Of a stretch of 51,779 bases of DNA, positions 10,293 to 47,922 are shown in pieces. Location of the stretch: contig CAMCYR010000023.1 in assembly GCA_945885475.1 (NCBI GenBank), positions 1 to 51,779 on the forward strand, given 5' to 3'. Source of the stretch: Chitinophaga pinensis (GTDB taxonomy: Bacteria; Bacteroidota; Bacteroidia; 2-12-FULL-35-15). The notes below the pieces were generated by a model that was given only the letters and a program-made list of their open reading frames with translations, was not told where the DNA came from and made no database searches. The position numbers and the translations under genes were made by a program. Position 1 is the stretch's first letter. Each line of letters opens with the position of its first letter.

Positions 10293-11666
10293 TTAACCGA
10301 ATAGCAGACTAAACACCTCTTCAATTTTACCAACCATTGTAATTTTAATATGATGCGCTTTCAGGTCTAATCCTTTTTTATTGTATTTCGAAATAAAAAT
10401 ATGTTCAAAACCTAACTTCTCCGCTTCAGAGATCCGTTGATCGATTCTGTTCACTGGACGAATTTCACCACTCAAGCCAACCTCACCGGCAAAACAAACT
10501 TTAGGTGAAATGGGCATATCTTCATTGCTCGATAAAACAGCACATACCAAGGCAAGATCAATACCGGGATCTTCCACTTTAATTCCACCGGCAATATTCA
10601 AAAAAACATCTTTCACTCCCAATCGGAAGCCGCAACGTTTTTCTAAAACGGCCAGCAACATCGACAATCTCCGAAGATCAAAGCCTGTTGAAGAACGTTG
10701 TGGTGTTCCGTAAGCAGCACTGCTAACAAGGGCCTGTGTTTCGATCAACATTGGTCGCATGCCTTCCATTGTTGCTGCAATTGCTACTCCGCTTACCAAC
10801 TCCTCACGTGCCGTTATCAATATTTCAGAAGGATTACTTACTTCTCTTAATCCACTTCCCTGCATTTCATAAATTCCTAATTCATTTGTTGAACCGAAAC
10901 GATTTTTAGCTGTCCGTAATAAACGGTATACATGATTTCTATCTCCTTCAAACTGAAGAACAGTGTCCACCATATGTTCCAACACTTTTGGTCCTGCCAA
11001 ACTTCCGTCTTTGGTAATATGCCCAATCAAAAAAACAGGAGTACCACTTTCTTTTGCATAGCGCAAAAGCTCGGCAGTACATTCACGAATTTGTGAAACA
11101 CTACCGGGTGATGATTCGATATGAGCAGAGTGTAAAGTTTGAATGGAATCAATGATCACAAAATTGGGCTCCAGTTGTTCGATCTGCTTAAAAATATTTT
11201 GGGTAGCAGTTTCCGTTAAAATATAACAATTGGGATTTTGCATTCCGATACGTTCGGCACGCATACGGATTTGCTGTTCACTTTCTTCGCCCGAAACATA
11301 AAGCACCTTCAGGTTTTTCATGTTTATCGCTACTTGCAACATCAGCGTAGACTTCCCGATGCCGGGCTCACCGCCAAAAAGTGTTAATGAACCAGGAACT
11401 AATCCACCACCCAGAACGCGTGAAAGTTCTTTGTCATACAGTTCGATACGGTGATGTTGCTCTAAATTAATTTCAGTGACCAATTGTGGCTTTGAAGCGC
11501 GTTGATTGCTTGTACTTGCAATACCAGGTGTTTTTGCGTCATCTCCTTTTGAAACAACTTCTTCAACATAGGTATTCCATTCATTGCATGAAGGACACTT
11601 CCCGATCCATTTTGCAGATTGAGTTCCACAATTTTGACAAAAAAAGGATGTTTTAGTTTTAGCCAT
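10293..11666 (-). CDS. radA: DNA repair protein RadA
   Basis: RecA-related ATPase that promotes branch migration in recombination. Domains in order: four-cysteine zinc finger (C10, C13, C24, C27), RecA-like core with Walker A GGEPGIGKST (98-107), the RadA-specific KNRFG motif (254-258), and a C-terminal Lon-like domain. The length of 457 aa is normal. Its ATG at 11666 overlaps the end of the nucleotidyltransferase gene by 8 bp, so it is translationally coupled at the end of the panC-panD-UPF0104 run. Confidence 0.97.
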   Translation of the reverse strand: MAKTKTSFFCQNCGTQSAKWIGKCPSCNEWNTYVEEVVSKGDDAKTPGIASTSNQRASKPQLVTEINLEQHHRIELYDKELSRVLGGGLVPGSLTLFGGEPGIGKSTLMLQVAINMKNLKVLYVSGEESEQQIRMRAERIGMQNPNCYILTETATQNIFKQIEQLEPNFVIIDSIQTLHSAHIESSPGSVSQIRECTAELLRYAKESGTPVFLIGHITKDGSLAGPKVLEHMVDTVLQFEGDRNHVYRLLRTAKNRFGSTNELGIYEMQGSGLREVSNPSEILITAREELVSGVAIAATMEGMRPMLIETQALVSSAAYGTPQRSSTGFDLRRLSMLLAVLEKRCGFRLGVKDVFLNIAGGIKVEDPGIDLALVCAVLSSNEDMPISPKVCFAGEVGLSGEIRPVNRIDQRISEAEKLGFEHIFISKYNKKGLDLKAHHIKITMVGKIEEVFSLLFG

Positions 11667-12198
11667 TTTTTATTTTATTCTCGATAGCAGTCGTTGAAAA
11701 TCCTTCTAAAAAAGCAATTGTTTTAACTTCTCCTCCATTTGCTTTCACATCATCTGAACCCACAATATATTTTTTATTTTCCTTATCTGATTCTGTTGCA
11801 TCATAATCAGCGCCTTTTACCAGCACATCAGGCTTCACGAATGAAATCAGATCCAAAGGAGTCTCTTCATCAAAAAGAATCACACCACTAACAAAGTGTA
11901 AAGATGCAAGAATAAGAGCACGTGTTTGTTCATCTTGTAAAGGGCGGGAAATACTTTTACCTAATCTTTTTACCGAGGCATCACTGTTTATTCCCACAAT
12001 AAGTTGCCCGCCTAAGTCACTTGCTTTTGCAAGATAATCGATGTGTCCACGATGAATAATGTCAAAGCACCCATTCGTGAAAACAATTTTATCGCCTTTA
12101 AATTTCCAAACGATCAAGGGTTTAAACAATGTTTCTTTTGTAAATATTTTTTCCTGAATAACTTCCAAGGAAGGACGTTTATGTGTAAATGGAACCAT
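11659..12198 (-). CDS. rfaE2: heptose 1-phosphate adenylyltransferase-like (RfaE2/HldE C-domain)
   Basis: A 179-residue nucleotidyltransferase with the HxGH motif (TNGCFDIIHRGH, residues 41-52) and the downstream features KGADY and EGFSTT that characterise the RfaE domain II family, which makes ADP-heptose for lipopolysaccharide core. The stand-alone form without the kinase domain is common in Bacteroidota. A glycerol-phosphate cytidylyltransferase-type role is possible but less likely from the EGFSTT ending. It overlaps radA by 8 bp and follows the UPF0104 membrane protein by 39 bp. Confidence 0.88.
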   Translation of the reverse strand: MVPFTHKRPSLEVIQEKIFTKETLFKPLIVWKFKGDKIVFTNGCFDIIHRGHIDYLAKASDLGGQLIVGINSDASVKRLGKSISRPLQDEQTRALILASLHFVSGVILFDEETPLDLISFVKPDVLVKGADYDATESDKENKKYIVGSDDVKANGGEVKTIAFLEGFSTTAIENKIKNG

Positions 12199-12237
12199 TT
12201 TTATAGCTTAAAAATATGAGTACTAAGAATATTAAAA

Positions 12238-13254
12238 TTACTTTTCTGTCTTTATTTCTTTATTCATTGCAGCCAAAAGTATGAATGAAATGAGTCCAAC
12301 CGACATAATAAGTACAAATTGAGAAGTCCAGACAGCCCAAGCAAATGCAAATGCAACAGGCTTTCCAATCAAATAAACGGTTGTAAGAATTTGAATGACG
12401 ATGAGTTGATAGGCGCCTGTGCCTCCAGGAACAGCAATAACACCTAAACTGCCAAATACAACAATGACAACTGCAACCATCACAGAAAGATGTGCTGTTT
12501 CTTCAAAAGCAAAAAAGCAAACATATACTTGCAAAACGTACATGATCCAGATAAGAATTGTATAAAGGATAAACCAAACAGGTTTGTTTACATTTTTAAT
12601 ACTTAACAAACCATCCCACAATCCTTTGATAAATCCTTTTGCCTTGCCGGAAATAAGAGATTGTATTTTTTTACGAAAATAGAAAAAGGCGGCAGCACAG
12701 ATTAGAAGGCATATTATGGCAACGATAACAAAGGTTTGCTTTTGCATCAAAGCATGAAATTTCTCGGAGACCGTATTAAAAATCAAATCGTTGGCAATAC
12801 CGGAAATACGTCCGAATTCGAGGCCTAATGCTGCAAAAAAGATCAGGATCAAACATACAACATCCAATGCTCTTTCGGACAGCACAGTGCCAAATCCAAC
12901 AGTGAAAGGGATCTTTTCGTATTTTGTCATCAGTCCGCAGCGCGAAATTTCACCTAATCGGGGCAAAGCAAAATTAGCAAGATAACCTACCATTACCGAA
13001 AAAAAAGTATTTGAAGTTTTAGGTTTATATCCCAGAGGATCCAGAAGAATTTTCCATCGAAGAGATCTGAAGTAGTGACTTAAGCCACTAATTATGATTG
13101 AAGCAAAGATCCAGAAATAATTCGCATTTGCCAGAGACGTTTTAATATTCGCAAATTCTTCATCGGAGGTGTTCCGCAATGCTAACCATATTAGTGCAAT
13201 TCCTAATCCTAAAAAAAAAAGGAATTTTAAGATGGTGAGTATTTGTCTTTTCAA
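12238..13254 (-). CDS. UPF0104/YbhN (lysylphosphatidylglycerol synthase TM region) family protein
   Basis: A 338-residue protein with about eight membrane segments, matching the flippase-like membrane part of MprF. No aminoacyl-transferase domain is attached, so lysyl-PG synthesis cannot be inferred; lipid translocation is a possible role. Family-typical stretches are SHYFRSLRWKILL, YLANFALPRLGEISRC and GSLGVIAVPGGTGAYQ. The start is TTG at 13254, four bases after the panD stop; no ATG lies near the conserved N-terminus. It is part of the panC-panD-radA run. Confidence 0.85.
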   Translation of the reverse strand: MKRQILTILKFLFFLGLGIALIWLALRNTSDEEFANIKTSLANANYFWIFASIIISGLSHYFRSLRWKILLDPLGYKPKTSNTFFSVMVGYLANFALPRLGEISRCGLMTKYEKIPFTVGFGTVLSERALDVVCLILIFFAALGLEFGRISGIANDLIFNTVSEKFHALMQKQTFVIVAIICLLICAAAFFYFRKKIQSLISGKAKGFIKGLWDGLLSIKNVNKPVWFILYTILIWIMYVLQVYVCFFAFEETAHLSVMVAVVIVVFGSLGVIAVPGGTGAYQLIVIQILTTVYLIGKPVAFAFAWAVWTSQFVLIMSVGLISFILLAAMNKEIKTEK

Positions 13255-13258
13255 AATG

Positions 13259-13609
13259 CTATCTTAAAGAATTCGTTTTTGCATCCGGAAAAACAACAGT
13301 AGGCTTATGTGTTTTCGCTTCTTCGAAATCCATCGTTGCATACGAAACGATAATTATTTCATGTCCGACTTTTACTTTAAGGGAAGCAGGTCCGTTCAGA
13401 CAAATAACGCCTGAGCCGCGCTCACCTTTTATAACGTAGGTAGTAAAGCGCTCACCGTTATTATAATTGAAGATATCAACCTTTTCATTTTCAATAAAAT
13501 TAGCTGCATCCATTAAATTTTCATCAATGGTAACCGAACCGATATAATCCAGATCGGCTTGCGTAACAGTAACGCGATGTATTTTTGATTTCAGAACTTC
13601 TATTTGCAT
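13259..13609 (-). CDS. panD: aspartate 1-decarboxylase proenzyme
   Basis: Pyruvoyl enzyme making beta-alanine for pantothenate and coenzyme A. The self-cleavage site is Gly24-Ser25 in YIGSVTID; Ser25 becomes the pyruvoyl group. Conserved [17 protein letters not shown] and the 116-aa length match the family. panC, encoding the enzyme that uses beta-alanine, is 66 bp upstream on the same strand. Confidence 0.97.
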
Positions 13610-13675
13610 AACGGAAGCAAAACTAAATAAATAAATTTAATTGAAGGGTAGCTTTTTAGACGGAATACTGATTTA

Positions 13676-14563
13676 TTAATATAAAACCACATTATCGATT
13701 AAACGCACCGCGCCAAGTTTAACTGCAATACAAACAACTGCGCTTTTGGAAGGATCTATCGCGTTTATAGGCTGTAACGTTTCCGAATCGACTATTTCAA
13801 GGTATTCTAGGGTCAGTAAGGGCTGGGACCGAATCAACTCCTCCGCACCTTTCAGTAGATCGGAAATTGGTTTTAAAAAACAATCCGCTTTAATTTTAAA
13901 AAGGGTTTTAGAGATGACTGCGGCCAAGACTCTTTCCTCTTTTGTGAGCCGTTCATTTCTGGAACTCATAGCCAATCCATTGGGTTCACGCATAATCTCG
14001 CATGCAATAATCTCGATGGGCATTTCCAATTGTTTCACCATACTTCTGATGATTGCCAGCTGCTGAAAATCCTTTTGACCGAAATACGCTTTGTCGGGCT
14101 CAACAATCCGGAATAGTTTGCTGACAACCTGAGCAACACCATTAAAATGCCCGGGGCGCTGGGCACCTTCCATCACTTTTTCTAGATCACCAAAATCAAC
14201 TGTTTTCCCCTTGGTCCAGCTTTTGTCCTCTATTTTTTGTTTTTTAAGTTCCAATTCCTCTTTTGTGTACAATTCAAGCACTTCAGGAGCAAAAACGCTA
14301 TCACATTTGGCTGTCTCAAGCAACTGACAGTCAGTAATTAAGGTTCTAGGGTATTTTTCAAGGTCAGAGAGATCGTTAAACTGGGTCGGATTGACAAAAA
14401 TGCTACAAATCACAACATCACAAACAGTCTTTGCACGCTCGATAAGTGAAATATGACCTTGGTGGAGCGCGCCCATGGTGGGCACAAAACCAATTATTTT
14501 TTTTTGGTCCCGAATACGATTCAGGTGATTTTTAAGTTGTTCTATTGAATTTATGATCAGCAT
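13676..14563 (-). CDS. panC: pantoate-beta-alanine ligase
   Basis: Joins pantoate and beta-alanine with ATP to give pantothenate. The nucleotidyltransferase HIGH-like motif is PTMGALHQGH (residues 28-37), followed by FVNPTQF and the KMSKS-like MSSRNERL. The ATG at 14563 gives 295 aa starting MLIINSIEQL; an upstream TTG is less likely. A degenerate -7 box (TGTTTTTG) ends 4 nt before this ATG. First gene of panC-panD-UPF0104-rfaE2-radA and divergent from the half glycogen synthase, an arrangement seen across Bacteroidota. Confidence 0.96.
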   Translation of the reverse strand: MLIINSIEQLKNHLNRIRDQKKIIGFVPTMGALHQGHISLIERAKTVCDVVICSIFVNPTQFNDLSDLEKYPRTLITDCQLLETAKCDSVFAPEVLELYTKEELELKKQKIEDKSWTKGKTVDFGDLEKVMEGAQRPGHFNGVAQVVSKLFRIVEPDKAYFGQKDFQQLAIIRSMVKQLEMPIEIIACEIMREPNGLAMSSRNERLTKEERVLAAVISKTLFKIKADCFLKPISDLLKGAEELIRSQPLLTLEYLEIVDSETLQPINAIDPSKSAVVCIAVKLGAVRLIDNVVLY

Positions 14564-14648
14564 CGGGCAAAAACACAAGTTAACATACGTAAAATCAGCT
14601 TAAACAAGGCTGTTTCAAGGTAAAAGTAGCCAAATCTAATATTAATAC

Positions 14649-14680
14649 TTTGAAATTACGGAAATTTTTACTTACTTTTG
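14649..14680 (+). promoter_or_regulatory. promoter of the glycogen-synthase-like gene
   Basis: TTTG at 14649-14652, then 20 bp, then TACTTTTG at 14673-14680. This is the best match to the Bacteroidota consensus in the window. The leader to the ATG at 14717 would be about 30 nt. Confidence 0.75.
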
Positions 14681-14716
14681 TATACTTTTTTAAAAACCTA
14701 ACCTTAATCCGATCTT

Positions 14717-15553
14717 ATGAAGAAGAAAGCTAGAGTTCTTTTTGTATCTCAAGAAGTTACACCCTATTTAGATGAAACACCTATGAGTGTTATCGGACGA
14801 AAATTACCACAAGGAATTCAGGAACGAGGCAAAGAAATAAGATTATTCATGCCAAAATTCGGAATCATCAATGAGAGACGGAATCAGTTGCACGAAGTGA
14901 TCCGTTTATCCGGGATGAATTTAATCATTGACAATAACGATCACCCGCTGATTATCAAGGTTGCTTCCATTCAGGCAGCACGAATGCAAGTCTATTTTAT
15001 TGATAATCAAGAGTATTTTGAGCGTAAACATATTTTAACGGACAAAAAAGGCGATCATTTTGCAGATAACGATGAGCGCGCTATCTTCTTTTGCAGAGGC
15101 GTTATAGAAACCGTTAAAAAGCTAGGCTGGTCTCCTGATATCGTTCATCTTCATGGTTGGATGACAAGTTTAACAGCTTTGTATCTAAAAAAATCATTCA
15201 AAGACAATCCTCTGTTTGCTGAAACAAAAATTGTTTATTCGGTTTATGATGATGAATTCAGCACTCCGTTAAACAAAGATTTCGCTAAAAAAATGCTTCA
15301 CGAAGGAATTGAAAAAACAGATGTAGAACATTATAAAAATCCTACCTTTGTAAACGTAAGTAAAGCGGCTATCGACTTGGCGGATGGTATTATCAAAGGA
15401 AGTGCAAAAATTAATTCGGATGTAGAGAAGTATATCAAAAAATCGGGCAAACCATTTTTGGATTTTGTTTCCGGTGAAAATAACGAATACATTGATGCAT
15501 ACTCCGATTTTTATGATGCTGTGTTGGAAGAAGTAGCAGAAATGGTTGACTAA
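14717..15553 (+). CDS. glycogen/starch synthase N-terminal-domain-like protein (half-length)
   Basis: A 278-residue protein that aligns with only the N-terminal Rossmann half of GT5 glycogen synthases (LFVSQEVTPYL..., VHLHGWMTSLTALYL). Full GlgA is about 480 aa. The ADP-glucose-binding K-x-G-G loop is replaced by DETP (19-22), and the HDWH-type motif reads HGWM (146-149). The C-terminal GT-B domain is missing with no sign of a frameshift: the frame ends cleanly and a strong terminator follows at 15593. Catalytic glycogen synthesis is therefore unlikely. Half-length versions beside panC are common in Bacteroidota; their function is unknown to me. Confidence 0.8.
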   Translation: MKKKARVLFVSQEVTPYLDETPMSVIGRKLPQGIQERGKEIRLFMPKFGIINERRNQLHEVIRLSGMNLIIDNNDHPLIIKVASIQAARMQVYFIDNQEYFERKHILTDKKGDHFADNDERAIFFCRGVIETVKKLGWSPDIVHLHGWMTSLTALYLKKSFKDNPLFAETKIVYSVYDDEFSTPLNKDFAKKMLHEGIEKTDVEHYKNPTFVNVSKAAIDLADGIIKGSAKINSDVEKYIKKSGKPFLDFVSGENNEYIDAYSDFYDAVLEEVAEMVD

Positions 15554-15562
15554 AAATTTTTT

Positions 15563-16963
15563 ATGACTATACATAACAGCAGCATACCTCAGATTTTGTC
15601 CCGATTGATCGGGACAAAATTTTTTTTTATACTTTCTTTGGGTGTAAGTATTTCTTTTACATCCTGTAATGAATCAAGCGTTGTCGGACTGGATGTTCAA
15701 CCCTCCAACGACCTACTGAATGTGGGTTTTGAGGATACTACCTCCATTAATACCCGAACGGTAAAAGGTGATTCACTAATTACAGACGAAACACTTATTT
15801 CGAGTGGAAATGTATTGATAGGTAAATACATCGATCCTGTTTTCGGAACATCAATTGCATCCATTTATACCCAATTGCGTTTACCGACAAATATCGTAGC
15901 AACATCTTTCGGAACAGCTCCCGTTTGTGATTCAATTATTATTTCACTTATTTATGAAGGCACGGCGTACGGTAAAAAAGACAAGAAACTGCAGAAATTA
16001 AATGTTTATCAGTTAAGTGAAAGTATGAGCACCGCAAGCACATACTATTCGAATTCAACTTTATCAAAATTTTCAACCGACTTGACTGCTGCAGACGGTT
16101 ATGTTTTTCAACCTCGAACAGGAAGCAGCACGTCAGACAGTGTGACCGTTTTAGGTGTGAAACTGAAACCACAACTGAGAGTTCCGCTTGATAATGCATT
16201 CGGACAATTACTTTTAAATAATCAAGGAACAGGGAATATTGCTACAAATACTGATTTTCAAAACTTTTTTAAAGGAGTTTATATTACAACTGAAAACACA
16301 AGCACTTTGCCTGGAGAAGGAAACATTCTTCATTTTAAATTTGGCGAATCAAAGGTCACGCTTTACTATCACAACAGCACAACTGATTCATTAAAATATG
16401 ATTTCAACTTAGGAAGTGTAGCACGTTTTAATCATTTTGAACACGATTATGCAGGAGCGAGTTCAGATCTTACAAATCAATTCAGCACACCTTCTCAAAC
16501 ACAAAACAATACAGTTTATGTGCAGTCGATGGCGGGAGCAAAAACTAAAATTGAATTTCCATACTTAATGAATTGGTTAAAAAACGGAATGATCGGAGTG
16601 AACAAGGCAGAGTTGGTGATCAGTGTGGACACCACCGTATCAACTTATATGATCGACACATTTGCCGCTCCAGCTGCCTTAATACTTTTCGGAATCAATG
16701 ATGACGGAACAACGTACGCGATCCCGGATGCATTTGAAGGAGCTACTTATTTTGGCGGGACATTAAATTCAGGAACGGTTCAATACCGCTTCAACATTGC
16801 TCGTTACATTCAGCAAGTATTGGATGGCGACAGAAACAATAACGGCTTATACATTTTGGCTTCAAACGGAGCGGTATACGGCAACAGAGCTGTAATCAGC
16901 GGAGGGCAGTCAACAAGTGCCAGACCAATGAAATTAAATATAACCTATACAAAACTACATTAA
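15563..16963 (+). CDS. DUF4270 family lipoprotein
   Basis: A 466-residue predicted lipoprotein: a hydrophobic stretch (about 20-33) ends in a lipobox-like SFTSC with Cys35, followed by a beta-rich exported domain of the Bacteroidota DUF4270 family, function unknown. The ATG at 15563 is the only one before the signal sequence, but codons 11-22 coincide with a strong terminator-like hairpin (15593-15628), so expression must read through it or start at an unusual codon. The stop is 3 bp before glmS, suggesting coupling. Confidence 0.8.
   Translation: MTIHNSSIPQILSRLIGTKFFFILSLGVSISFTSCNESSVVGLDVQPSNDLLNVGFEDTTSINTRTVKGDSLITDETLISSGNVLIGKYIDPVFGTSIASIYTQLRLPTNIVATSFGTAPVCDSIIISLIYEGTAYGKKDKKLQKLNVYQLSESMSTASTYYSNSTLSKFSTDLTAADGYVFQPRTGSSTSDSVTVLGVKLKPQLRVPLDNAFGQLLLNNQGTGNIATNTDFQNFFKGVYITTENTSTLPGEGNILHFKFGESKVTLYYHNSTTDSLKYDFNLGSVARFNHFEHDYAGASSDLTNQFSTPSQTQNNTVYVQSMAGAKTKIEFPYLMNWLKNGMIGVNKAELVISVDTTVSTYMIDTFAAPAALILFGINDDGTTYAIPDAFEGATYFGGTLNSGTVQYRFNIARYIQQVLDGDRNNNGLYILASNGAVYGNRAVISGGQSTSARPMKLNITYTKLH
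15593..15628 (+). terminator. strong hairpin with T-run inside the DUF4270 5' end
   Basis: Perfect 13-bp stem ATTTTGTCCCGAT (15593-15605) / ATCGGGACAAAAT (15608-15620), followed by eight T residues (15621-15628). It is 40 bp after the stop of the half glycogen synthase and fits as its Rho-independent terminator, yet lies within codons 11-22 of the DUF4270 frame. It could act as terminator or attenuator. Confidence 0.75.
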
Positions 16964-16966
16964 CAG

Positions 16967-18808
16967 ATGTGTGGAATAGTTGCTTATATCGGAAATAAAC
17001 AAGCCTATCCTTTTTTGATAAAAGGACTACAGCGCCTTGAGTACAGAGGCTACGACAGTGCCGGTGTCGCTATGATAGATAATGGCGAACTGAACGTATA
17101 CAAGTGCAAAGGAAAGGTGGTTGATTTGCATAATTTTATCGGAGATAACAATAAAGGTGGTACGATCGGGATTGGTCACACCCGCTGGGCAACACATGGT
17201 GTTCCCAACGATGTAAATGCTCATCCGCATTATTCCGCATCCAAAAACATGGTGATGATCCACAATGGAATCATCGAGAACTATGGTCCGCTGAAGGAAG
17301 AATTAAAAAAACGTGGACATGTTTTTCTGTCTGATACCGATACGGAAGTATTGATCCATCTTATTGAAGACATTAAAGAAAAAGAAGATGTACGTTTGGG
17401 TGAAGCAGTTCGAATCGCATTAAATCAAGTTGTTGGAGCTTACGCCATTGTAATCCTTTCGAAAGAAAACCCGGATGAATTATTTGCTGCTAAAAAAGGC
17501 AGTCCGATGGTGATTGGAATCGGAAAAGATGAATTTTACATTGCATCAGATGCGACACCAATTGTTGAGTACACAAAAAATGTTGTTTACTTAGAAGATG
17601 AGGAAATCGCTTTTATTGAACGTGGCAAAGAATTAAAAATAAAAACGATCAAGAATAAAGTAAAAACGCCCTATGTTCAAGAACTGGAGTTGAAATTGGA
17701 GGCATTGGAAAAGGGCGGTTACGATCACTTTATGTTGAAGGAGATCTACGAACAACCCCGTTCAATCAAAGACAGTATGCGTGGAAGATTGAGCTCCGAA
17801 AAAGGCGTTGTAAATCTGGGAGGAATCACGGAGTATGAACAAAAGTTCATCAATGCAAAACGCATCATCATTATTGCATGTGGAACATCATGGCATGCTG
17901 GATTGGTAGCAGAATATTTATTTGAAGATTTAGCACGCATACCTGTTGAGGTGGAATATGCATCTGAATTTCGTTACAGAAATCCTATTGTTTATGAGGA
18001 TGATGTGGTGATCGCTATTTCCCAATCAGGTGAAACTGCGGATACATTGGCAGCAATTGAATTGGCGAAGTCGAAAGGTGCAACCATCATTGGTGTTTGT
18101 AATGTAGTAGGATCATCCATTGCGCGTGCTACACATGCAGGATCATATACACATGCAGGACCGGAAATAGGCGTTGCATCCACAAAAGCATTTACAGCTC
18201 AAGTAACTGTGCTTACATTAATGGCATTAAGAATTGCATATCTCAAGGGAAACATTTCGAATTCCCGTTTTCATACCTTGATCAGTGAATTAGAAGCTGT
18301 ACCTGAAAAAATCGAACGTGTATTACAAACGAATGATAAAATAAAATACATTGCCGAAATTTACAAAAATGTGAGTAACGCATTATACCTTGGCCGTGGA
18401 TACAGTTTCCCTGTTGCATTGGAAGGCGCTTTAAAACTAAAAGAGATTTCTTATATCCATGCGGAAGGCTATCCTGCTGCGGAAATGAAACACGGTCCGA
18501 TCGCCTTGATCGATGAAGAGATGCCTGTTTTTGTTATTGCAACAAAAGGAACTTCATACGAAAAAGTAGTAAGTAACATTCAAGAAGTAAAAGCACGTAA
18601 AGGAAAAATTATTGCCATTGTAACAGAAGGTGATACGCAAGTAAAAGAGATGGCGGATTACACCATTGAAATTCCAGAGACAGATGAAATATTGGTTCCT
18701 TTAGTTTCAGTTGTTCCCTTGCAACTGTTATCCTACCACATTGCTGTTATGAGAGACTGTAACGTGGACCAACCAAGAAATTTGGCTAAATCGGTAACTG
18801 TTGAGTAA
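16967..18808 (+). CDS. glmS: glutamine-fructose-6-phosphate transaminase (isomerizing)
   Basis: Makes glucosamine-6-phosphate from fructose-6-phosphate and glutamine for peptidoglycan and LPS. The N-terminal nucleophile is Cys2 (MCGIVAYIG) of the glutamine-amidotransferase domain, with RWATHG and GIIENY motifs. Two SIS sugar-binding domains follow (about 285-420 and 455-595; SQSGETADT and the C-terminal VDQPRNLAKSVTVE). The length of 613 aa is normal. No glmS ribozyme is expected here and none was seen; the gene starts 3 bp after the DUF4270 stop. Confidence 0.98.
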   Translation: MCGIVAYIGNKQAYPFLIKGLQRLEYRGYDSAGVAMIDNGELNVYKCKGKVVDLHNFIGDNNKGGTIGIGHTRWATHGVPNDVNAHPHYSASKNMVMIHNGIIENYGPLKEELKKRGHVFLSDTDTEVLIHLIEDIKEKEDVRLGEAVRIALNQVVGAYAIVILSKENPDELFAAKKGSPMVIGIGKDEFYIASDATPIVEYTKNVVYLEDEEIAFIERGKELKIKTIKNKVKTPYVQELELKLEALEKGGYDHFMLKEIYEQPRSIKDSMRGRLSSEKGVVNLGGITEYEQKFINAKRIIIIACGTSWHAGLVAEYLFEDLARIPVEVEYASEFRYRNPIVYEDDVVIAISQSGETADTLAAIELAKSKGATIIGVCNVVGSSIARATHAGSYTHAGPEIGVASTKAFTAQVTVLTLMALRIAYLKGNISNSRFHTLISELEAVPEKIERVLQTNDKIKYIAEIYKNVSNALYLGRGYSFPVALEGALKLKEISYIHAEGYPAAEMKHGPIALIDEEMPVFVIATKGTSYEKVVSNIQEVKARKGKIIAIVTEGDTQVKEMADYTIEIPETDEILVPLVSVVPLQLLSYHIAVMRDCNVDQPRNLAKSVTVE

Positions 18809-18872
18809 GTTTCGGCGCCATTGCGAGTAGCACTCTTCGCGCGCTGTATTAATCTTAGGCTATTATTGTATT

Positions 18873-18904
18873 AAACGCTTCGTAAAAACACGAAGCGTTT
18901 TTTT
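18873..18904 (+). terminator. Rho-independent terminator after glmS
   Basis: Perfect 11-bp stem AAACGCTTCGT (18873-18883) / ACGAAGCGTTT (18890-18900), 6-nt loop, then TTTT. It lies 64 bp after the glmS stop. Confidence 0.85.
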
Positions 18905-19176
18905 ATGTAACCACTCCTACGTTTTCAGCATCAGTACTAAAATTTAAATTGATTTTTTCAATGTATCGAAACAATAAACTTTTAGTAAAGCGTAGCCTTT
19001 TTTTATTTTTATTAATTAATAGATCTGCAGAATTGTTTACGGAAATAAATCTAACCAAAAAGTAAACAAGGAGTTTTTACTAAACATCCCATTTCTACAC
19101 CCAAGTAATTATACACACCATCTTACAACAATAAGTGGAATAAGTTTAAATAAAAAACTTGTAGTACAAAAATAAT
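18905..19176. other. spacer between glmS terminator and haaO, no gene seen
   Basis: AT-rich, with stops in all frames at short intervals. I see no reading frame with protein-like composition and no convincing hairpin. It separates two convergent genes. Confidence 0.5.
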
Positions 19177-19713
19177 TTAATGTGAACTCTCTGCTTTCAC
19201 TGCCACAGGAGGCTCCATAACTGCTCCACATTTTTTGCAGGTACGCAAGTCAATGCTTCCATAAAAGTGCACGAAAGTTTCCTGAAACTGAGTCATAATA
19301 TTGGTCAGTTTAAATTTTTTCACAAATAAAGGCTCGTTGCATGTTTCACAAAACCACATCAAACCATCTTCTTCCCCTTCTCTGCGTTTACGCTCAATAA
19401 CCAATCCAATCGTATTGGGCCCTCGCATGGGATTATGCGGCACGCGGGGAGGTAGAAGAAAGATTTCCCCTTCATTAATGGGAACAGTTACTGCTTTCCC
19501 ATCTTCCTGAACTTGCACAGCTATATTCCCTTCTAGCTGATAAAAAAATTCTTCACTTTCATTGTAGTGATAATCTTTACGGGCATTCGGACCACCAACG
19601 ACCATAATAATAAACTCGGTATCTTCATAAACAACTTTGTTATTTACGGGTGGCTTTAAAAGATGACGGTTGTCGTCAATCCATTTTTTGAAACCAAAAG
19701 GACGTGTAATCAT
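19177..19713 (-). CDS. haaO: 3-hydroxyanthranilate 3,4-dioxygenase
   Basis: Cupin-fold non-haem iron dioxygenase that opens 3-hydroxyanthranilate on the way from tryptophan (kynurenine pathway) to quinolinate and NAD. The iron ligands are His49 and Glu55 (in DYHYNESEEFF) and His93 (RVPHNPMR). A rubredoxin-like C-terminal metal site is formed by C122, C125, C159 and C162, typical of the bacterial enzyme. The length of 178 aa is normal. No other kynurenine-pathway gene is in the window. It starts only 12 bp after the stop of a TonB receptor gene, so the two are probably co-transcribed. Confidence 0.95.
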   Translation of the reverse strand: MITRPFGFKKWIDDNRHLLKPPVNNKVVYEDTEFIIMVVGGPNARKDYHYNESEEFFYQLEGNIAVQVQEDGKAVTVPINEGEIFLLPPRVPHNPMRGPNTIGLVIERKRREGEEDGLMWFCETCNEPLFVKKFKLTNIMTQFQETFVHFYGSIDLRTCKKCGAVMEPPVAVKAESSH

Positions 19714-46644: not shown

Positions 46645-47922
46645 TTAATTAATGCGCGTTTTAAGTTTATATAAACGATAAGAGATCACGATGGAAAAAA
46701 CAAAGAAAAGTCCGAGTTTTAAAATCTGGTATTGGGTCGCATACCAGTCGCCACCCTTAATAAATAACTCATAATAACCTGTGAGTGCCCAGTTAAGGGG
46801 AGATAGAGAACTGATGGTTTGCATAACAGGGGGCATAATATTTACGGGCACCCAGATACCACCAAGGGCAGACATTATCAGAATGCTGATACCGCCAAAT
46901 ACTGCAGATTGCTGTGGCGTGTTGAATAATGTTCCGATCAATAAGCCATAACTAACTGCAGCCAAGGATAGCATCATCGTGAGTGCGGTCAATGCGAACC
47001 AATGCGTTCCAATATCTAAGACAGGTAGACCTAACAGCGGCATCACATACTTTCCGAGTAAGATGATCATTACAAATTGAATAATTGCAACTATAAAATA
47101 AACCAAAAGTTTACCCGATAAGATTGAAAGAAAATTACCGGGAAATGTTCTCAACCGGATAAACATCCCTTCCGAACGTTCATAAATGATACTACCTGCC
47201 AAAGGTAAAACGATAAAAAATATTGAAAAAATAGCCCAAGCAGGAATGTTATGCTGAACAGCACTTGGCTGATATGTTTTTTTTAGATCTCTGACAGCAT
47301 ATGCTTCCTCATAAACAAAAAAATCAGAATCGGGTAGCACCGCTTTTGAATCTGATTCCAACAGCTGAGCAATTTTTTCACCCATTATTTGAAATAATAA
47401 CTTCGTTTTTATGGAAGAGATCAACTCTTTTAATCCACTATTGATAGCCATTACAAAAGATTTGTTTGCCGTAGGATCGATAATGATCTCTACTTTCACC
47501 TGTTCTGGATTTTTTAATACCGTGCTTTTCTGATCAAAAAAAACGTTCACCAATTCGTCCACATTACCACGCAGTATGTTTGTCGCATTTTTGGGTATCA
47601 CTAATGCTGCGAGAAATTCTCCCTCTACAATTCTCTTTTTGATGTCATCGGATGATTTATATATTGTTCCGTCATCAACTGTTAATTCACAAATTCCGAA
47701 TTGCTTAAACCCGTTTTCGATTGCAAATCCAAGGCTGTCATTGTCATTGTTAACCAGTAATACAGGGATTCCGGACTGAGAAAGACTTTTATATGCCTCA
47801 TGTTGAATGAGCGTCATAATGAACACAAGCAAAACTGGCATCACAAAAAGAACCGTGATACCGGTTTTGTCAACAATCAGCAATTTGACTTCTTTAATTA
47901 AGGTTGAAATTAATCGATGCAT
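46645..47922 (-). CDS. ABC-2 type transporter permease
   Basis: A 425-residue permease: an N-terminal membrane helix (about 20-40), a large extracytoplasmic domain (about 45-225), then about five membrane helices, as in ABC-2 (YhiH/DrrB-like) exporters. Conserved GGIWVPVNIMPPVMQTISSLSPLNWALTGYYE lies in the last third. It pairs with the ATPase gene directly upstream (1 bp gap). Location in the operon suggests it exports the cluster product to the periplasm or outer leaflet. Confidence 0.92.
   Translation of the reverse strand: MHRLISTLIKEVKLLIVDKTGITVLFVMPVLLVFIMTLIQHEAYKSLSQSGIPVLLVNNDNDSLGFAIENGFKQFGICELTVDDGTIYKSSDDIKKRIVEGEFLAALVIPKNATNILRGNVDELVNVFFDQKSTVLKNPEQVKVEIIIDPTANKSFVMAINSGLKELISSIKTKLLFQIMGEKIAQLLESDSKAVLPDSDFFVYEEAYAVRDLKKTYQPSAVQHNIPAWAIFSIFFIVLPLAGSIIYERSEGMFIRLRTFPGNFLSILSGKLLVYFIVAIIQFVMIILLGKYVMPLLGLPVLDIGTHWFALTALTMMLSLAAVSYGLLIGTLFNTPQQSAVFGGISILIMSALGGIWVPVNIMPPVMQTISSLSPLNWALTGYYELFIKGGDWYATQYQILKLGLFFVFSIVISYRLYKLKTRIN

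Follow-up and report, generated by a model that had tools for sequence, protein, structure and literature searches.

A half-length, very probably non-catalytic relative of bacterial glycogen synthase encoded next to bamH in Bacteroidota

The 278 aa protein encoded at positions 14717-15553 of a 51,779-nucleotide contig of Chitinophaga pinensis (CAMCYR010000023.1, analyzed over its whole length and hereinafter the window) belongs by descent, judging from its sequence, to the GT5 lineage, but none of the catalytic features tested marks it as a glycogen synthase. We favor, with moderate confidence, the view that this protein, denoted half-GT5, is an exapted, non-catalytic descendant of GlgA that has lost a domain by excision and is tied to envelope biogenesis, with an operon and a hairpin as parts of the mechanism. 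The case is of general relevance in that the name glycogen synthase is attached to a gene in the core set of a major phylum of gut and marine bacteria although the gene product lacks the donor domain and key residues. The locus (here and below, the class is Bacteroidia) is organized as follows.

13676-14578, minus strand: panC, divergent, a neighbor within the class that does not occur in the half-GT5 loci read outside the class
14649-14680, plus strand: promoter candidate of the Bacteroidota type, TTTG-N20-TACTTTTG, 36 bp upstream of the start codon, conserved in the relatives L002-L013
14717-15553, plus strand: half-GT5 (pseudo-glycogen synthase) open reading frame, ATG at 14717, stop codon at 15551-15553
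15563-16963, plus strand: bamH-family (DUF4270) outer-membrane lipoprotein gene, 466 aa, lipobox Cys codon at 15665-15667
15591-15628, plus strand: hairpin resembling an intrinsic terminator (15591-15622; 14 pairs, loop of 4) with a T run (15620-15628) in the signal-peptide codons of bamH, a candidate attenuator
16967-18808, plus strand: glmS, starting 3 nt past the bamH stop, likely the last gene of the unit
18873-18900, plus strand: terminator-like hairpin 3' of glmS

In a Pfam search, the only match above the cut-off in the 278 aa protein is PF08323 (Glyco_transf_5; residues 6-236, E 4.6e-48, 164.4 bits against a cut-off of 22.7), and there is no match to a C-terminal donor-binding domain of the PF00534 type, which is found in the full-length GlgAs of loci L200 and L172. 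The preliminary description of a genuine gene for a GT5 relative without the ADP-glucose domain is thus borne out. The match to TIGR02095 (glgA) is confined to the N-terminal half of the model and scores 108.2 bits, compared to the cut-off of 328.45. The best NCBIfam match, to NF010698 (PRK14098, “starch synthase”; a family that we take to be that of Chlorobi), spans residues 3-232 and is likewise partial, covering the N-terminal half only at 158.9 bits, far under the cut-off of 754. The N-terminus enters the first strand of the fold directly (model residues 6-11), and neither a signal peptide nor a lipobox is discernible by eye. Four segments of the protein are pertinent to its relationship with GlgA.

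14771-14782, plus strand: codons 19-22, reading DETP where E. coli GlgA has, in the alignment, the K-T-G-G donor loop
14873-15007, plus strand: codons 53-97, the most conserved block, with 30 of the 57 invariant columns of alignment A3 (71 sequences), a share that is inflated because A3 rows were fetched with two patterns from this block; the pattern-free A1 shows the same block
15152-15163, plus strand: codons 146-149, HGWM in place of HDWH in the alignment with E. coli GlgA
15476-15547, plus strand: codons 254-277, encoding a C-terminal helix that corresponds to the final helix of GlgA (structure strong, sequence weak), the preceding donor domain apparently excised

The AlphaFold2 model of half-GT5, built from a 71-sequence alignment, has a mean pLDDT of 89.9 and a pTM of 0.90. 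The first 17 Foldseek matches in the PDB are all starch or glycogen synthases, and so are the 12 top entries of the VIA structural alignment (Z 22.7-27.3), in which the synthase chains are matched at their two termini by the termini of the model (residues 1-5 and 267-273). Model residues 5-271 pair with residues 1-477 of 1rzu_A, and residues 5-269 with residues 1-476 of 3cop, where each range denotes the first and last aligned residue only. Given this end-to-end pairing, the C-terminal helix appears to be retained and the domain in between to be missing, such that half-GT5 is predicted to consist of the N-terminal domain of the GT-B fold and the C-terminal cross-over helix, with the intervening donor domain cut out. 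The assertion of the preliminary description that only the N-terminal GT5 domain is present accordingly holds with respect to the donor domain but overlooks the helix. By sequence profile, homology of the helix is weak (best score 5.4 bits); some match is found in 145 of 162 halves, and in 118 of these the best match begins within the last 60 residues. A pairwise comparison of E. coli GlgA with L174, a less derived half, agrees with the model: the aligned parts are stretches of GlgA residues 1-215 and then residues 455-477, plus two short scraps in between.

As noted in the preliminary description, the K-x-G-G loop of GlgA reads DETP and HDWH reads HGWM. The positions of D137 and H161, which we take to be active-site residues of E. 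coli GlgA (the roles of the compared residues in GlgA are likewise assumed), are occupied by G147 and Y177, respectively. The K, G and G of the loop, D137 and H161 are all present in 30 of 30 full-length GlgAs from other classes of the phylum. Among 144 halves of the class, the D137 position holds G in 143, the H161 position holds Y in 134, and the position of K15 holds P in 56, D in 28 and E in 26 (110 rows together), with K in 15. The 18 halves from outside the class are intermediate, with K in 5 and R in 5 at the first position (K15), G in 10 and D in 8 at the second (D137), and H in 7 at the third (H161). Two full-length GlgAs of family f33 (L172 and L173; 488-489 aa), presumably Chlorobia, have lost KTGG (the loops are RVSS and RTSA) and kept D137 and H161, and only one GT5 was found in each of these genomes.

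In the C. pinensis genome (3.06 Mb, 84 contigs, 99% complete), the half-GT5 frame is the single PF08323 match, a profile search yielded no GT3 glycogen synthase (PF05693), and the C-terminal part of the full-length L200 GlgA, used as the query, picked up no more than two open frames, of 394 and 396 aa, both of them weakly (23 and 27% identity; E 4.2e-4 and 0.15). Therefore, the genome shows neither a GT5 or GT3 glycogen synthase nor a clear second half, so that the search for a full GlgA proposed in the preliminary description came back empty, and the contrary finding it had envisaged, a C-terminal half encoded elsewhere, did not materialize beyond the two weak matches. Half-GT5 has in common with GlgA (GT5; TIGR02095, PF08323 plus PF00534) the fold and sequence of the N-domain, the C-terminal helix and the descent of the gene, but, unlike GlgA, it lacks the donor domain and scores far below the TIGR02095 cut-off. 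Because the KTGG, D137 and H161 positions are replaced, the C-domain is absent and the genome shows no clear complementing half, half-GT5 is very probably non-catalytic, in agreement with the preliminary description; the loss of enzyme activity that we infer from these features appears to be well supported.

Half-GT5 is nevertheless maintained rather than decaying, as the preliminary description had it, because its dN/dS values are 0.019-0.037 in comparisons with seven relatives (NG86, first 250 codons; dS is saturated, at 4.5, for L013, and an eighth relative, L022, has no computable dS) and because a half-length form is the best match in each of the 73 class genomes sampled. Purifying selection on the gene is strong. 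A protein search recovered it in 38 of 41 genomes (C. pinensis and its relatives) and in all 32 of those with at least 90% completeness. Profile A1 matches 294 of 296 genomes of the phylum, full-length GlgAs included, and in each of the 73 class genomes (72 drawn plus the C. pinensis genome), its best match is the half-length form, with an open frame of 258-397 aa, which makes half-GT5 a core gene of the class. In nine of these genomes (G146, G324, G308, G320, G316, G304, G249, G052 and G134), the profile match crosses one TAA, which may reflect the match overrunning the protein end. Near the old active site, G147, W148 and S175 are fixed in A3, and D141 and H144 nearly so; by analogy with GlgA, all five presumably line the cleft.

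The half-GT5 stop codon ends 9 nt before the ATG of the next gene, the product of which is the sole DUF4270 (PF14092) match in the genome (191.7 bits, cut-off 27). This gene is denoted bamH-family because it misses the cut-offs of the NCBIfam BamH equivalogs (NF053686, 102.6 of 420 bits; NF053687, 38.3 of 670); its single copy and the gene order suggest that it is the BamH orthologue. A bamG gene is found on a different contig (368.8 bits). Both BamH and BamG have been described as subunits of the BAM complex of Bacteroidota (PMC12611786; PMC12578637). In F. johnsoniae, both are reported to be essential, and they are conserved across the phylum (PMC12611786), whereas BamH of B. thetaiotaomicron is important but not essential (PMC12578637); the respective BamH genes are Fjoh_0823 and BT_4306 (PMC12611786; PMC12578637). 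Although bamH is a genetic neighbor of half-GT5, as is bamG in the cluster outside the class, BamG and BamH are outer-membrane or surface proteins, unlike half-GT5, which has no signal peptide by inspection of the sequence and the model.

Same-strand bamH directly follows half-GT5 in 65 of the 75 named and 29 of the 30 unnamed loci of the class, in all 29 loci of the relatives set and in all 18 half loci outside the class, the last being hand-picked from short-frame matches in 14 families (in L189, the bamH frame overlaps the half). The corresponding counts for adjacent divergent panC are 46 of 72, 29 of 30, 27 of 27 and 0 of 18; all these denominators refer to loci with enough flanking DNA, and the C. 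pinensis locus is counted in both the relatives and the unnamed class sets. The conserved partner of half-GT5 is therefore not panC, to which the preliminary description had assigned a constant position and which does adjoin it in C. pinensis, but bamH. That half-GT5 is linked to bamH, both within the class and in further classes of the phylum, is well supported. Adjacent bamH was not detected in 11 class loci (L049, L061, L074, L081, L089, L090, L093, L103, L107, L109 and L144) and, among five extra class loci, in L194, and bamG is not within 3.5 kb downstream in any of 85 class loci, some of which end sooner. The whole arrangement at 10293-18808, radA - rfaE2-like - LPG_synthase_TM - panD - panC divergent from half-GT5 - bamH - glmS, recurs entirely or in part in many named class loci. 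The rfaE2-like gene scores 168.2 of 181.5 against TIGR02199; we assume that rfaE2 in this cluster and GmhB outside the class both represent ADP-heptose steps. A gene of the 3-hydroxyanthranilate 3,4-dioxygenase family (PF06052) is located nearby, at 19177-19713 on the minus strand.

In a tree of 81 N-domains rooted with E. coli GlgA, obtained in a quick search without bootstrap, 28 class halves and 16 of the 18 outside halves form one clade (SH-aLRT 100) that is nested among the full-length GlgAs of other classes. The nearest full-length proteins belong to families f33, f31, f44 and f64 and share with the halves the block N-[DE]-R-[RK]...LH-[DE]-V-[IL]-R-L. Thirteen regions around full-length GlgAs (L200-L212, 12 families outside the class) were read for gene order. 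A bamH-type gene lies downstream on the same strand in 12 of the 13 with the L200-seeded profile (the exception is L211, family f33) and in 10 with the window-seeded profile; bamG is nearby in 8 and a GmhB-like phosphatase in 10. NCBIfam models support one such operon, that of L200, in which GlgA scores 604.6 (over the cut-off) against TIGR02095 and BamG 257.5 (cut-off 250), the GmhB-like protein falls just short for PRK08942 (171.5, cut-off 178), and a DNRLRE-domain protein matches the bamH profiles. The 6 kb GlgA loci of other GT5 lineages, L177 and L178, show no bamH. Thus, in other classes an intact-looking GlgA heads a glgA-gmhB-bamH-bamG cluster, and the halves of family f54 keep the order gmhB-bamH-bamG-rpiB-glyA. 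The GT5-bamH order is found with 12 of 13 full-length GlgAs, 18 of 18 outside halves and in 72 of 85 class loci, and the other neighbors vary. Since bamH lies downstream of full-length GlgAs, the glgA-bamH(-bamG) linkage appears to predate the excision. The linkage, seemingly older than the loss of the enzyme, offers a direct, testable starting point in the search for a cytosolic player or regulator that is missing from the newly described Bacteroidota BAM system. Two independent excisions, in the main clade and in family f54, are hinted at by the quick tree, the gene order and the nearly intact loops of L175 and L176 (KTGS and KTSA); however, a single origin survives the AU test (p 0.311), and accordingly two events are not claimed.

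The preliminary description credited half-GT5 with the best promoter in the window. The candidate at 14649-14680 is indeed the sole exact TTTG-N20-TAnnTTTG in the window, but 0.83 such matches are expected by chance. The support for this promoter comes from its conservation in relatives, given that a single match in the window is near chance: a looser motif, with N17-23, is found within 150 bp upstream of half-GT5 in 24 of 30 loci of the relatives set (C. pinensis included), but in none of these 30 loci within the initial 150 bp of coding sequence. Outside the relatives set, the looser motif is present in 17 of the 71 named and a single one of the 28 unnamed class loci, and in none of the 18 loci outside the class. 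Over the whole window it occurs 4 times, compared to 5.7 in Markov sequences, so that the motif by itself proves nothing. A generic sigma-70 scan of 12000-18000 gave 14 sites (17.4 in shuffles), none of them at 14649-14680.

The strong terminator ascribed to half-GT5 in the preliminary description is a real hairpin (15591-15622; -18.4 kcal/mol, z -6.1); however, it is not the 3' end of half-GT5 itself but falls after the bamH ATG, in signal-peptide codons, with 42 nt between the hairpin and the lipobox Cys codon. At most 205 nt from the half-GT5 stop, a hairpin plus T run is found in 25 of 29 loci of the relatives set (controls, 2 and 0), 25 of 78 named class loci (1 and 1), 10 of 30 unnamed class loci (1 and 0), 0 of 5 extra class loci (0 and 1) and 3 of 18 loci outside the class (0 and 0). 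Given the low counts outside the relatives set, any attenuation would be lineage-limited. All 21 same-genus loci examined (including that of C. pinensis; the half-GT5 gene search covered 25 such genomes) have the hairpin, with loops of up to 16, compared to 3 of 21 on the opposite strand. Among 44 named loci with contiguous half-bamH-glmS, it is present in 11, whereas none has one at the bamH-glmS junction and 5 have one on the opposite strand. Among 147 loci with adjacent bamH (the C. pinensis locus being included twice), the hairpin was scored as located inside the coding sequence 33 times and upstream of the ATG 7 times; its placement was unclear in 3 loci, no hairpin was found in 69, and the rule used detected no lipobox in 35. 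“Inside” means that an in-frame Met comes earlier and that none of the Met residues after the hairpin start precedes the Cys by 13 residues or more, GTG and TTG starts being ignored; L004, L022 and L023 are among the few rows in which the Cys was probably taken too early.

In 23 aligned stems, 96.3% of the cells pair, a share that is inflated inasmuch as the rows were picked for having a hairpin and are related; 9 of the 14 pairs have changed on both sides, and no measure was reached in any of 500 shuffles. As a result of the double changes, the signal peptide itself differs in amino acids (SR..GT to PR..GA, among others); the hairpin is an example of an RNA constraint that shapes the sequence of a signal peptide. 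The maintenance of the stem by compensatory changes across the genus suggests an attenuator, and we read the hairpin as a putative partial terminator within bamH that would lower the expression of bamH-glmS relative to half-GT5. Among other elements searched for, Rfam yielded only RsaF for 14200-19200 (21.7 bits, gathering threshold 60, E 0.84), which is taken to be a chance match, and the possibility that CCCGAT...ATCGGG is a dispersed repeat was rejected given its single copy in the window. In family f18 (L146, L147, L148, L150, L151 and L152), a different hairpin with a T run is located at the bamH start and was scored inside the signal-peptide codons in 4 of the 6 loci; this may be a parallel case. 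A further terminator-like hairpin, at 47835-47864 on the minus strand, lies within about 90 nt of the start of the open reading frame at 46645-47922 (minus strand).

Under the scenario that we favor, the ancestor of half-GT5 would have been an ADP-glucose-dependent GT5 GlgA encoded by the first gene of an operon that also included bamH and bamG. Excision would then have removed the C-terminal domain that binds the donor nucleotide, leaving the N-terminal Rossmann domain together with the C-terminal cross-over helix, and the active site would have been rewritten. The resulting cytosolic protein would be a non-catalytic binding partner or sensor that serves envelope or outer-membrane biogenesis, a role favored here because the most lasting neighbor is bamH. 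Half-GT5 would be co-transcribed with bamH and glmS from its own promoter, and the hairpin would pass only part of the transcripts into bamH-glmS, perhaps those with the bamH leader under translation, such that half-GT5 protein would be made in excess. Direct contact between half-GT5 and BamH is unlikely because BamH is exposed on the cell surface, and the link may consist only in shared transcription.

The main rival to this scenario, which we consider unlikely but deserving of serious attention, is a co-transcribed housekeeping role, whereby half-GT5 is a core protein unrelated to the outer membrane that adjoins bamH only through a shared need for a constitutive promoter. Compatible with this possibility, bamG is missing downstream in the class, where panC and glmS adjoin instead, and in some class loci no adjacent bamH was detected, that is, the cluster is not inviolate. 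The persistence of the GT5-bamH order with full-length GlgAs, outside halves and most class loci, while the other neighbors change, argues against it.

Rather improbable, in our assessment, is a ligand-sensing regulator that would bind a nucleotide-like, cobamide-like or glucan ligand in the old cleft and signal carbon or cofactor status to envelope synthesis. The fixed or nearly fixed residues near the old active site are in line with such a role. So is a result for BT_4307 of B. thetaiotaomicron: in a screen with a vitamin B12 photo-probe, 16 proteins, this one included (log2 2.61 and 1.05), were enriched in each of the two replicates (PMC8941943, Table 1), which is a lead for ligand binding by half-GT5; the same table, however, contains likely bystanders, e.g., trigger factor (PMC8941943). 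Moreover, BT_4307 is placed in the half-GT5 family by locus number and name, not by sequence: BT_4307 and Fjoh_0824 adjoin the BamH genes BT_4306 and Fjoh_0823 by number, as half-GT5 adjoins bamH, which suggests that both are the half-GT5 gene, and BT_4307 has been named a putative or potential glycogen synthase (PMC10797578; PMC8941943). If BT_4307 is indeed the half-GT5 gene, its interpretation as a hint of glycogen storage (PMC10797578) is not supported. A bolder combination, on which we would place little weight, is a universal cytosolic pseudo-glycogen synthase of Bacteroidota that would control the construction of the outer membrane without catalysis: it would bind a metabolite in the vacated cleft, the attenuator in the bamH signal-peptide codons would make the supply of BamH and GlmS depend on the metabolic state, and the protein would be a relic of an ancestral glycogen-BAM operon.

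Two further explanations are barely tenable. A still-active glycosyltransferase with a donor domain supplied in trans would draw on the fact that GT-B domains can in principle be split, but it is already disfavored by the loss of the donor loop, D137 and H161 and by the mere two weak C-domain matches in the genome. A reading frame that serves only as a leader bringing ribosomes to bamH, with an irrelevant protein product, would fit the short gap before the bamH ATG and the hairpin that follows but is at odds with the strong constraint at the amino acid level (dN/dS; 57 invariant columns in 71 sequences) and the confidently predicted GT5 fold.

A literature search, mostly in open-access main text, found no account of the half-GT5 architecture, the bamH linkage or the hairpin, and searches for truncated or inactive GT5 and for terminators in signal-peptide codons found nothing relevant. 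The word “glycogen” is absent from the main texts of both BAM papers (PMC12611786; PMC12578637), and Bt4307 from that of the B. thetaiotaomicron one. A single sentence in a review states that Bacteroidetes kept a GlgA-GT5 fragment (PMC11046441); this fragment very probably is half-GT5, the architecture, neighborhood, age and function of which are not given in that sentence. The main text of a P. gingivalis essential-gene paper contains nothing on the half-GT5 locus. In the same species, PGN_1734, numbered beside the BamH gene PGN_1735, is listed under transport (PMC6706054) and for this reason may not be the half-GT5 gene, and a “glycogen synthase” orthogroup reported to be under positive selection (PMC10394638) could be the half-GT5 gene.
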